Part shown: piece after piece, positions 26,338-30,523 of the stretch | Layout of the letters: every line of letters starts with the position of its first letter | How positions within the stretch are numbered: the first letter of the stretch is position 1 | NCBI GenBank assembly: GCA_028377625.1 | Contig: JAONKT010000005.1 | Coordinates: 1 to 37,101, forward strand | From: Candidatus Nitrosopumilus sp. | GTDB taxonomy: Archaea > Thermoproteota > Nitrososphaeria > Nitrososphaerales > Nitrosopumilaceae | Reading direction: 5' to 3' | Length of the DNA: 37,101 nucleotides | The notes under the pieces: model-generated | What the model saw: the letters and a program-made list of their open reading frames with translations, nothing else | What the model was told of the DNA's origin: nothing | Database searches by the model: none | Position numbers and translations under genes: made by a program

Positions 26338-27420
26338 GTGAAAATAAACACAAAATCATCCATTCGTAAGCATTCTCCTGTAATTCATGGAGGAAAAATT
26401 CCTTCAAAAAATAGCGATCACAAAATTATTGATTTTAGTTCAAATATTACTCCTTTAGGAATTCCTAATTCTGTAAAATCAATCATTAAAAAAAATTTAG
26501 ATAACGTCAAATTTTATCCTGATCCACATTCTGACACTGTAGTTTCAAGTTTAGAAAAATATACTCATTTATCAAAATCAAATATTATTGTTGGAAATGG
26601 TGCAATAGAAATTCTTTATAATTTCTGTTTTGCATTATTATCGAAAACAACTAAAGTGTTAATTCATGTACCAACATTTCAAGAATATGAAACTGCAGTA
26701 AAACTAAGTAATTGTAAAATTTCTTATTTTAATTCATTGAATTTATCAAAAAATATTGATTTGTTTATTTCAAAAATTCCAAAAAATGGATGTATTTTTC
26801 TTTGTAATCCTAATAATCCTACAGGTGAATTATTATCTAAAAAAGAATTATTATCTGTAATAATTACAGCAAAAAAATTAAAAACCATTGTGTTTATTGA
26901 TGAATGTTTTATTGAATTAGTACCAAAATCTAATGAATCTGTTCTATCTTATGTAAAAAAATATGATAATCTTTTTATTTTAAGATCTCTAACAAAATCA
27001 TTTGGATTACCTGGATTAAGAATAGGATATGGATGTGGTTCTAAAGAAATAATTAAAATTTTACAAAAAATAAAAATTCCATGGAGTGTAAATTCATTGG
27101 CACAGGATGCAGCAAATGTTGTAATTAAAAATGTGTCTCATATTAAAAAATCTAATTTCATAATTAAAAAAGAGTTAAAATATTTAGAAAATGCAATTTC
27201 TATTTTAAATGGATTTGAATGTATTTCTTCATCTACTAATTTCATTTTAATTAAAACAAAATATGATTCTACAAAATTACAAACAAAATTATTAAAAAGT
27301 AAAATTTTAATTCGTGACTGTAAAAATTTTAGAGGTTTAGATAATCATTATGTTAGAATTGCAGTAAAATCTCACAAAGATAATGTAAAATTAGTAGCAG
27401 CATTGGAGAAAATCAAATGA
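26338..27420 (+). CDS. cobD: Aminotransferase-fold PLP enzyme, probable L-threonine-phosphate decarboxylase (CobD)
   Basis: PLP-dependent enzyme of the HisC-like class, 360 aa. Seen: SSNITPLGIP near the start, GNGAIEIL (86-93), NPNNPTGELL (158-167), FIDECFIELVP, and the PLP-lysine segment SLTKSFGLPGLRIGYG with Lys220. HisC itself shares this layout, but position at the head of a run of cobalamin genes (cobQ, cbiB, cobS, cobY) argues for the CobD role of making (R)-1-aminopropan-2-ol phosphate, the nucleotide-loop linker. The start is GTG. The stop overlaps the next gene in ATGA. Confidence 0.85.
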   Translation: MKINTKSSIRKHSPVIHGGKIPSKNSDHKIIDFSSNITPLGIPNSVKSIIKKNLDNVKFYPDPHSDTVVSSLEKYTHLSKSNIIVGNGAIEILYNFCFALLSKTTKVLIHVPTFQEYETAVKLSNCKISYFNSLNLSKNIDLFISKIPKNGCIFLCNPNNPTGELLSKKELLSVIITAKKLKTIVFIDECFIELVPKSNESVLSYVKKYDNLFILRSLTKSFGLPGLRIGYGCGSKEIIKILQKIKIPWSVNSLAQDAANVVIKNVSHIKKSNFIIKKELKYLENAISILNGFECISSSTNFILIKTKYDSTKLQTKLLKSKILIRDCKNFRGLDNHYVRIAVKSHKDNVKLVAALEKIK

Positions 27421-28256
27421 AATCTTTAATGATTCAGGGAACTTCCTCTGGTGCTGGTAAAACAACATTAGTTGCAGCCTTATGTAGAATTTTTTCAGAC
27501 AAAGGCTACAGTGTTGCTCCTTTTAAATCTCAAAATATGTCTAATTTTGCTTATAGTACGCCTGATTTTGAAATTTCTCGTGCTCAAGCAATTCAAGCTT
27601 TTGGTGCACGTTGTAACATAACTTCTGATTTGAATCCTATTTTATTAAAACCAGTTGGAAATTATTCTAGTATTGTTTACTTGAATGGAAAACGCTTCAA
27701 AAAAATGCATGCTCAAGAGTACTACGAAAAATTTGTAAATACTCAAGGTATGAAAATAGCCACAAAATCATTACAGACTTTACAGAAAAATTTTGATTTG
27801 GTAATTCTAGAAGGTGCAGGTTCTCCTGCAGAAATTAATTTACAAAAGTATGATATTGCAAATATGAAAATTGCTAAAAAAGCAAATGCACATGTATTAC
27901 TTGTAACTGATATTGATAAAGGAGGATCTTTTGCAAGTTTAGTTGGAACAATGAATTTAATTGATAAAAAATATCAAAAGCTTGTAAAAGGATTTGTTTT
28001 TAATAAATTTCGTGGCGATCTTACTGTATTGAAACCTGGATTTAAAAAATTAAAAAATATTACAAAAATTCCAACAATTGGAACTATCCCATTAATGACA
28101 TTAAATTTACCTGAAGAAGATTCTCTTAATGCAAAACCTAAAGATATTACTTTTAATAAAAAAAATATTTCTAAAATTAATAATGAATTAAATAAATTAT
28201 CAAAAATTGTTAAATCAAATATAGATATTAATACAATTGAGAAAATATTACAATGA
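27417..28256 (+). CDS. cobQ: Cobyric acid synthase-like protein, ATPase domain only
   Basis: Amidates cobyrinic acid a,c-diamide side chains in the family. Seen: P-loop GTSSGAGKTT (8-17), the CobQ signature FKSQNMSNFAY (36-46), ISRAQAIQAFGA, LNPILLKPVG, VILEGAGSPAEINL, and VTDIDKGGSFASLVGT with GFVFNKFRGD. That is the complete dethiobiotin-synthetase-like half. The protein stops at 279 aa, whereas family members are near 480-500 aa with a C-terminal glutaminase (GATase) domain. That half is missing. The stop runs into cbiB by ATGA, with no remnant of the lost domain, so this is a real architecture and not a frameshift seen here. The ammonia source must differ (inference). Confidence 0.88.
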   Translation: MKSLMIQGTSSGAGKTTLVAALCRIFSDKGYSVAPFKSQNMSNFAYSTPDFEISRAQAIQAFGARCNITSDLNPILLKPVGNYSSIVYLNGKRFKKMHAQEYYEKFVNTQGMKIATKSLQTLQKNFDLVILEGAGSPAEINLQKYDIANMKIAKKANAHVLLVTDIDKGGSFASLVGTMNLIDKKYQKLVKGFVFNKFRGDLTVLKPGFKKLKNITKIPTIGTIPLMTLNLPEEDSLNAKPKDITFNKKNISKINNELNKLSKIVKSNIDINTIEKILQ

Positions 28257-29224
28257 TTCTTGAATCTATTTTTATTATTGGTTTTGCAATTTTAATTGAT
28301 TTAATATTTGGAGATCCAAAAAATCGTTATCATCCAACAGCTTGGATAGGAATATTAATTGCAAAATTTACTCCTCCTGCAAAACATCATAACCCAATAT
28401 TTGAAAAAATTAATGGGATTTTAATTATAATAATTATTTCTGGTATTGTTATTTCATTATTGTCTGGTCTTAATATTGGAATTTCTTTAATTTCTATTGA
28501 TTATATTTCATTAATTGTCTCTGTATTAATTGGAGCCTTATTGCTTAAGACAACTATAGCTATTCGTGGAATGGAAAAACATGCAACTAGTGTATTGGAA
28601 TCATTGGAAAGTAATAATCTTGATTTGGCCAGAAATTATCTATCTATGATTGTTAAACGAAATACTACTAATTTAGACAAAAATCATGTACTTTCAGGCG
28701 TACTAGAAAGCATCAGTGAAAATACTGTTGATGGTATAACTGGTCCAATGTTTTATTATGCTTTTTTTGGGTTATGGGGAGCTTTTGTTTATCGAATAAT
28801 CAATACAGCAGATTCAATGATTGGGTACAAAAATGATTTTTTTAAAAATTTAGGATGGTTTACTGCTATCAGTGACACAATCTTAAATTATATTCCATCT
28901 AGGCTTACAGGATTGATAATGATTGTTTCAGCAGCTATTTTACAAAATAATTGGAGAAATTCTTACAAAGTGATGATGAGGGATGGTAACACAACTGAAA
29001 GTCCTAATGCTGGATACCCGATGGCAGCATTAGCCGGAGCTTTAGAAACTAAATTTGAAAAAATAAATCATTACAAATTAGGTGATGGTGAGATTACACT
29101 CACAAAATATCATGTTTATTCTGCAATTAAGATTATGAAATTAACATCAATTCTTTTCTTTGGACTTGTTACAGTTCCAATTATTCTAATTTTATCTATG
29201 ATTGGATGGTGGCTCTATGTTTAA
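28253..29224 (+). CDS. cbiB: Adenosylcobinamide-phosphate synthase CbiB
   Basis: Membrane enzyme that joins aminopropanol phosphate to adenosylcobyric acid. Seen: the conserved DLIFGDPKNRYHPTAWIG near the N-terminus, membrane helices, LVKR-type MIVKRNTTNLD, ESISENTVDGITGPMFYYAFFGLWGAF, YKNDFFKNLGWFTA, and MMRDGNTTESPNAGYPMAALAGAL. Length 323 aa. It overlaps cobQ by ATGA and cobS by eight bases. Confidence 0.95.
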   Translation: MILESIFIIGFAILIDLIFGDPKNRYHPTAWIGILIAKFTPPAKHHNPIFEKINGILIIIIISGIVISLLSGLNIGISLISIDYISLIVSVLIGALLLKTTIAIRGMEKHATSVLESLESNNLDLARNYLSMIVKRNTTNLDKNHVLSGVLESISENTVDGITGPMFYYAFFGLWGAFVYRIINTADSMIGYKNDFFKNLGWFTAISDTILNYIPSRLTGLIMIVSAAILQNNWRNSYKVMMRDGNTTESPNAGYPMAALAGALETKFEKINHYKLGDGEITLTKYHVYSAIKIMKLTSILFFGLVTVPIILILSMIGWWLYV

Positions 29225-29942
29225 ACAAATTGGTTCAATTTTTTCTTTTTTAACAATTTTACCAACATCAAATTCTACATTAGATGATATTGCAAAATAC
29301 ATGTATCTATTTCCTATTGTTGGAATCTTCATTGGAATTTTAGTAGGTTCATTTGGTTTTGGTTTATCATTTCTTTTAGATCCAATTCTAGTTAGTTTTC
29401 TTGTAGTTACATCAATTGTAATAATAACTGGAATTCATCATGCAGATGGTTTAGCTGATTTTGCTGATGGTCTTATGGTGAAAGGTAGTAAAGAAAAAAA
29501 ACTTAATGCAATGAAGGATCTTTCTACAGGTTCTGCAGGAGTAGTTGCAATTGTTTTATATTTGATTGGCTTGGTTGTCACAATTTCACTTACGAATGGA
29601 TTTGATTTGTTTAAGGCAATTTTGATTAGTGAAATTTTAGCAAAATTTTCAATGGTTCTATTGGCAAGTTTAGGAAACTCAGCATCAATAGGCTCAAACT
29701 CTCCTTTTATGAAAATTATGAAAGATAGGAAAAAACTAATGGTGGCTTTTGTAATTATGATAATTCCTGTTGCTTTAGTTGCTGAAACTACTGGGTTAGT
29801 CATGTTAGTTGTAACTTTTCTTGTAACATTGATAATTTTGGCAATATCTAACCGTAGTTTTGGCGGAGTTACTGGAGATGTTCTAGGAACAACTAATGAA
29901 TTAACTCGCCTGTCATCTTTGATGGTGTTTGTGTCATTATGA
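29217..29942 (+). CDS. cobS: Adenosylcobinamide-GDP ribazoletransferase (cobalamin synthase) CobS
   Basis: Integral membrane enzyme that joins adenosylcobinamide-GDP to the lower-ligand riboside in the last stage of B12 synthesis. Seen: SFLTILPT near the start, HHADGLADFADGLMV with the metal-binding Asp residues, KLNAMKDLSTGSAGVVAI, and GGVTGDVLGTTNELTRL near the C-terminus, all family hallmarks, plus multiple membrane helices. The frame opens with TTG 29202, but ATG 29217 (preceded by GGTGG) gives the standard N-terminus. Length 241 aa. It overlaps cobY by ATGA. Confidence 0.94.
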   Translation: MFKQIGSIFSFLTILPTSNSTLDDIAKYMYLFPIVGIFIGILVGSFGFGLSFLLDPILVSFLVVTSIVIITGIHHADGLADFADGLMVKGSKEKKLNAMKDLSTGSAGVVAIVLYLIGLVVTISLTNGFDLFKAILISEILAKFSMVLLASLGNSASIGSNSPFMKIMKDRKKLMVAFVIMIIPVALVAETTGLVMLVVTFLVTLIILAISNRSFGGVTGDVLGTTNELTRLSSLMVFVSL

Positions 29943-30523
29943 TTGGTTTGATAATGGCAGGTGGTAAAGGTACACGTATGAATTTAGAAAATGAAAAATT
30001 ATTACTTAAATATAAAAAACCAATCATCTTTCATGTATTTGATTCTTTAAAAAATTCTAATTGTTTTTCAAAAATTTTAGCATTAACTAGTTCAAATTCT
30101 CCAAACACAAGAACATTATTACAAAAAAATAATATTGAAATTTTTGATACTACTGGAATTGGATATGTTGAAGATTTAACTTTGCTACTTCAATCTACAA
30201 ATGATTCGGTGTTAGTTACTTCAGGTGATTTACCGTTATTGGATGCAGAAATTATACAAAAAATTGTTAAAAATTATGAACCGGAAAAAATTTGGACAAG
30301 TATACTTGTTACTAATCAGTTTTTAACTAAACTAGGATTAGAATCTGATTACTTTGTAACTCATAATAATCAAAAATGTAATTATACTGGAATTTCTTTA
30401 ATTAATGCAAATAAAATTAATTCATCTAAAAATTTGGATGAAAATTATATTATAATTGATGATAAGCGAATTGCATTTAATTTAAACACAAAACAGGATT
30501 ATGAATTACTCAGCACTACCTGA
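29939..30523 (+). CDS. cobY: Adenosylcobinamide-phosphate guanylyltransferase CobY
   Basis: Archaeal replacement of CobU that makes adenosylcobinamide-GDP from GTP. Seen: a nucleotidyltransferase fold starting IGLIMAGGKGTRMNLENEKLLL (GG/KGTR nucleotide loop and the Lys), VTSGDLPLLD in the middle with the metal-binding Asp, and NYTGISLINANKI. 194 aa, normal. Related MobA-like transferases look similar; the cobalamin operon context decides. The end overlaps the convergent eS27 gene by 18 bases. Confidence 0.88.
   Translation: MIGLIMAGGKGTRMNLENEKLLLKYKKPIIFHVFDSLKNSNCFSKILALTSSNSPNTRTLLQKNNIEIFDTTGIGYVEDLTLLLQSTNDSVLVTSGDLPLLDAEIIQKIVKNYEPEKIWTSILVTNQFLTKLGLESDYFVTHNNQKCNYTGISLINANKINSSKNLDENYIIIDDKRIAFNLNTKQDYELLSTT

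Follow-up and report, generated by a model that had tools for sequence, protein, structure and literature searches.

A cobyric acid synthase variant with an absent or inactivated glutaminase domain in ammonia-oxidizing archaea

The window analyzed here, a stretch of 37,101 nucleotides from Candidatus Nitrosopumilus sp., carries cobQ (cbiP) within a late cobalamin gene cluster. The order CobD-like aminotransferase-cobQ-cbiB-cobS-cobY is that found in ammonia-oxidizing archaea (AOA) and recurs with small changes in non-AOA relatives. The genes, and the parts of the CobQ protein, are the following.

26338..27420, + strand: HisC/CobD-like aminotransferase of the L-threonine-phosphate decarboxylase type (TIGR01140, 276 bits, slightly below cut-off); upstream neighbor, kept in AOA and non-AOA
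27417..28256, + strand: cobQ/cbiP without glutaminase domain (279 aa ORF; NCBIfam matches; same length and locus in genus relatives; dN/dS 0.10-0.18)
27417..28124, + strand: ATPase/amide-ligase domain, residues 1-236 (Pfam CbiA and AAA_26; dethiobiotin-synthetase fold; motifs intact)
28125..28157, + strand: junction without glutaminase, residues 237-247 (from alignment with full-length CobQ of AmoA-negative relatives, which have about 200 residues here)
28158..28253, + strand: kept C-terminal helices, residues 248-279 (tail HMM match; AlphaFold2 model)
28253..29224, + strand: CbiB, adenosylcobinamide-phosphate synthase (TIGR00380, 262 bits); downstream neighbor
29202..29942, + strand: CobS, adenosylcobinamide-GDP ribazoletransferase (TIGR00317, 186 bits)
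29939..30523, + strand: CobY-like nucleotidyltransferase (TIGR00454 and NF045495, both below cut-off; position conserved)

An initial annotation of this DNA had described a 279-residue reading frame with intact overlaps on both sides. The locus bears this out: cobQ shares a 4-base ATGA overlap with the aminotransferase gene upstream and another with cbiB downstream. The protein matches PRK00784 with 331 bits over profile positions 1-245 of 480, above the cut-off of 273, and TIGR00313 with 297.2 bits over positions 1-258 of 477, narrowly missing the equivalog cut-off of 309.9. It carries the CobQ-specific ATPase domain with its P-loop and EGAGSPAEIN/DIANM motifs. A Pfam search of the protein found the CbiA/AAA_26 ATPase and no GATase_3, the glutaminase (GATase) domain. 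When the window's own assembly was searched in six frames for GATase_3, the window contig gave no match and the only matches elsewhere were CbiA and PdxT, in agreement with the earlier statement that no leftover GATase sequence is present. A phmmer search against the PDB returned no solved relative of CobQ. When the predicted structure of the short protein was submitted to Foldseek, the best match was 1dts (TM 0.58/0.71, 18% identity). Dethiobiotin synthetase (BioD), a single-domain P-loop enzyme, is thus the closest solved fold, but its substrate and reaction differ.

The description of the gene as only the ATPase half of the enzyme was correct as to the missing GATase_3 but not as to the end of the protein. 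In full-length CobQ the glutaminase is followed by two C-terminal helices, and the last ~31 residues of the window protein are their counterpart. With an HMM of this tail made from AmoA-negative relatives, most short CobQ tails outscored all of 12,000 shuffled sequences. With an HMM made from bacterial and euryarchaeal CobQ, the best match lay at the C-terminus in 40/40 AOA CobQs, and 26 of the 40 exceeded the best of 8,000 shuffles; the tail of the window protein scored 15.4 bits, against a maximum of 9.7 in 8000 shuffles. AlphaFold2 placed helices at residues 248-268 and 271-278 of the window protein (pLDDT 94-96; mostly at least 90 in the ATPase domain), and the same helix pair stands at the end of a structure model of a full-length relative's CobQ. 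Because these post-glutaminase helices were retained, the glutaminase must have been cut out from within the gene. A plain 3' truncation of cobQ is ruled out by the conserved tail.

The initial annotation had proposed to check the length of other thaumarchaeal cobQ genes. Nearly all genus relatives carry a short CobQ at this locus, and the short form extends across the window's family. In the order as a whole, CobQ was found in 298 of 400 genomes. Only 17 CobQs reach into the glutaminase region, a count drawn from the matches listed, with the lowest-scoring matches outside the list. Fourteen of these 17 belong to families coded f6, f7, f9, f13 and f14 (the window's family being f1), and all fourteen have the catalytic Cys, in GICGG or GVCGG, and the His of GT-x-x-HG. 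AmoA was not found in those of the 14 genomes covered by the AmoA searches, some of these negatives being only implied by the absence of the genome among the matches listed. The other three long CobQs (from G073 and G089 in f3 and G114 in f2) come from AmoA-positive genomes, and their glutaminase is dead. Wherever both properties were tested the split is without exception: the domain is absent or dead in the AmoA-positive families f1, f2, f3 and f8 and intact in the AmoA-negative families f6, f7, f9, f13 and f14. Over several hundred relatives, the state of the glutaminase follows ammonia oxidation, and in every AOA examined here the domain is absent or inactivated.

The initial annotation had taken full-length CobQ at the same locus in related genomes as a possible sign of local error or decay. 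Such genes do exist, likewise ordered aminotransferase-CobQ-CbiB, but they are confined to AmoA-negative families or have a dead domain; the GATase-less cobQ is therefore an ancient trait of the lineage rather than a product of local decay. Across the 398 genomes examined from the phylum, non-AOA CobQs are long, with a single exception (G711), a 206-residue frame that matches part of the profile only. In bacterial and euryarchaeal CobQ the catalytic Cys, the catalytic His and the His of EIH are conserved in 79/79 sequences, a sample ranked by match to a full-length query and therefore uninformative on how frequent short CobQs are elsewhere. No report of a GATase-less CobQ in AOA was found in the open-access literature (papers behind subscription could be missed).

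Some features of the surrounding genomes deserve mention in their own right. In AmoA-negative relatives (L044, L045, L046) full-length cobQ clusters with genes for CbiZ (adenosylcobinamide amidohydrolase) and for FecCD, Peripla_BP_2 and ABC transporter proteins, probably representing corrinoid salvage; these genes are missing beside AOA cobQ. One genome with 5% contamination (G063) has two short CobQ copies, on contigs C99 and C10, perhaps reflecting a contaminant strain. In G159 (f8), contigs C12, C15, C27 and C29 hold two long and two partial matches to archaeal AmoA, which suggests that either amoA is present in an unusual number of copies or the assembly is split.

The three dead domains allow the decay of the glutaminase to be followed. 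In the f3 proteins (G073 and G089) the catalytic His is replaced by Tyr; in G114 the Cys is replaced by Asp and the His region is deleted. Common to both are a change of GICGG to GI-EG and the loss of EIH, suggesting, as far as sequences can tell, that they descend from one inactive ancestor. In f3 the glutaminase has changed more quickly than the ATPase: G073 and G089 are 80.6% identical in the ATPase domain and 56.4% in the glutaminase, as against 82-86% and 69-82% in four control pairs with active glutaminase. In a tree of the ATPase domain all AOA CobQs form one clade (100/99) adjoining the CobQs of AmoA-negative genomes. Within it, the dead G114 protein joins the short f2 CobQs (82/54), and the short f1 and f8 CobQs stand together (89/92). 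On this tree the short state requires two changes, one change being sufficient in 14% of the bootstrap trees. We prefer to read these data as one inactivation with at least two later excisions, without taking them as proof. Since AOA CobQs make up one clade, the match between CobQ and ammonia oxidation is possibly one event, which does not show cause; the link may rest on a single ancestral event coinciding with other AOA traits.

The condition of the gene itself speaks against the simplest explanations of its shortness. The window comes from a fragmented assembly, 58.6% complete, in which a local assembly error or a recent pseudogene might be suspected, but closed genomes of several genera and families have CobQ of the same length at the same locus and short cobQ is under purifying selection (dN/dS about 0.10-0.18). 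We regard this possibility, ruled out by these two findings, as negligible. A more elaborate proposal would be that the short protein is no longer a cobyric acid synthase and performs some of the amidations only, or has another role, while another enzyme completes the side chains. What favors it is that Leu43 and Gln86 (positions 27543-27545 and 27672-27674 of the window), conserved in full-length CobQ, are replaced in AOA CobQs, including those of f3 and G114 with dead domains, and that Asn44 is in part changed as well. However, 44 positions that are invariant in full-length CobQ are also retained in the AOA proteins, cobQ still lies among genes for CobD-like, CbiB, CobS and CobY proteins, and the genomes contain no second CobQ, other matches being weak (1e-9 or worse). 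Moreover, AOA make B12 (PMC4303638). Loss of the cobyric acid synthase role is thus very unlikely in our judgment. Leu43 and Gln86 may be part of the coupling to the glutaminase. The AOA protein agrees with CobQ/CbiP (TIGR00313, PRK00784) in its ATPase domain, main motifs, C-terminal helices and gene neighborhood, and differs in having no glutaminase (in f3 and G114, a catalytically dead one) and in the replacement of Leu43 and Gln86. Because domain, tail and neighborhood fit CobQ and only the glutaminase feature fails, the protein is best called a GATase-less variant of CobQ.

If the enzyme works, its ammonia could be made by another protein. A detached CobQ-type glutaminase, the partner that the initial annotation had proposed to look for, is absent from 30 single-contig AOA genomes, in a search whose query does pick up the decayed remnant of G114. 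Searches for stand-alone forms, made in 120 relatives with Pfam GATase_3 and in 36 genomes with the GATase half of the G077 protein, returned only CbiA and weak matches in ~200-aa frames of other GATase families, and a stand-alone CobQ-type GATase is rejected for the genomes searched. In all four AOA families, the glutaminase Cys and His are retained by CbiA, the amidating enzyme that precedes CobQ, and AOA genomes encode about as many class-I GATases as non-AOA genomes do, from which it follows that AOA have not abandoned glutamine generally. Since CbiA is a low-flux enzyme and yet retains Cys and His, plentiful ammonia alone fails to explain why the loss is confined to CobQ. CobQ might, then, borrow ammonia from the CbiA glutaminase through a CbiA-CobQ complex, the domain loss having removed a redundancy. 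The two enzymes act in succession, the AECGG and ASYxH motifs of CbiA are intact in AOA of all four families, and complete AOA genomes have no further GATase of the CobQ/CobB type besides CbiA; but cbiA is distant from cobQ (positions 66 kb and 157 kb in G006; 2.38 Mb and 0.91 Mb in G078), and a non-AOA genome (G076) has CbiA with intact glutaminase alongside a full-length CobQ. We hold this arrangement to be unlikely, and somewhat less likely again one in which a stand-alone class-I GATase unrelated to the lost domain feeds CobQ as GatD does MurT. A candidate for the latter is an orphan GuaA-subunit-A-like protein of 180-200 aa with its catalytic Cys and HPE in place. It occurs throughout the AOA families, G114 and f3 among them. 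GuaA in AOA is a fused protein, and a stand-alone GuaA synthetase subunit with which the orphan could pair is missing. The GATase family of the orphan nonetheless differs from that of the lost domain, its gene lies in a PriL/PriS primase-UPF0182-GATase-TPR cluster away from the cobalamin genes, and it also occurs in family f12, where CobQ was not found.

Two further observations concern these GATases. The cluster PriL-PriS-UPF0182-GATase-TPR is located at L081:1-6500 in G006 and on contig C34 (L035) of the window's own genome, and recurs in most AOA families. In G023 (C3:152525-152938) one in-frame TAG interrupts CbiA within its GATase part; this may be a sequencing error, or CbiA may be decaying in this genome.

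CobQ normally draws its amide nitrogen from glutamine. With the CobQ and CobB enzymes of Pseudomonas denitrificans, ammonia is usable in vitro, at a Km much higher than that for glutamine. The initial annotation had proposed that the short enzyme uses either free ammonia or a borrowed glutaminase. That AOA CobQ uses ammonia from outside the protein is well supported, because no detached GATase was found and the short form is an ancient lineage trait; we infer both that the source is free ammonia and that ammonia oxidation lies behind the loss. As sources, we rank free cytosolic ammonia as the most likely, CbiA next and the orphan GATase last. In our favored explanation the product of the gene is a functional cobyric acid synthase which, deprived of a glutaminase of its own, receives nitrogen from outside the protein, most likely as free NH3; we consider this probable, if by no means assured. 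The glutaminase would have stopped working in or near the AOA ancestor, and the useless domain would have been deleted later, probably at least twice. The remaining enzyme would activate the b, d, e and g carboxylates of the corrin a,c-diamide with ATP, like other CobQs, and the nitrogen would be supplied to it externally, most likely from the cytosolic free NH3 of an ammonia-importing cell. A stronger version holds that AOA CobQ is strictly ammonia-dependent, that its glutaminase died as the lineage became an ammonia oxidizer, and that the enzyme altered at Leu43 and Gln86 is adapted to free NH3, so that the AOA cytosol holds enough ammonia for this step without glutamine hydrolysis. This we advance tentatively, as a serious possibility that falls a little short of probable. 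The level of ammonium inside AOA cells is not known (PMC10432482).

Two other synthetases offer parallels. NadE, the ATP-using, amide-forming NAD synthetase, exists with and without a glutaminase part; its single-domain form uses ammonia, has been judged ancestral and is spread across taxa (PMC3376133). AOA CobQ likewise belongs to an amide-forming, ATP-using enzyme found in both states and, by analogy, probably works like the single-domain, ammonia-using NAD synthetase; in CobQ, however, the glutaminase was there at first and went through decay, with intermediates, within a single physiological group. In MurT-GatD, which amidates lipid II, the CobQ-type GATase is a separate subunit, GatD, which has a solved structure and uses the Cys-His pair as a dyad (PMC5871853). 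MurT and AOA CobQ are both synthetases without a glutaminase of their own, and the Cys-His dyad of GatD is common to CobQ, but a GatD-like separate subunit was not found in 30 closed AOA genomes.

Evidence points to AOA as major sources of oceanic vitamin B12; all thaumarchaeal genomes available at the time of that study encode the B12 pathway, and N. maritimus grows without vitamins (PMC4303638). The series from active to His-dead, Cys-dead and deleted glutaminase provides a clear case of an amidotransferase losing the use of glutamine, and a CobQ without GATase can serve as an easy marker for the AOA lineage. Should ammonia be supplied in trans instead, a partnership of CobQ with CbiA or with the orphan GATase is there to be found. 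If AOA CobQ runs on free ammonia, four amide nitrogens of AOA B12 would come straight from the energy substrate of the cell, and the amount of B12 made could vary with the supply of ammonia; the Km of the enzyme for ammonia would offer an independent handle on the ammonia concentration inside AOA cells.
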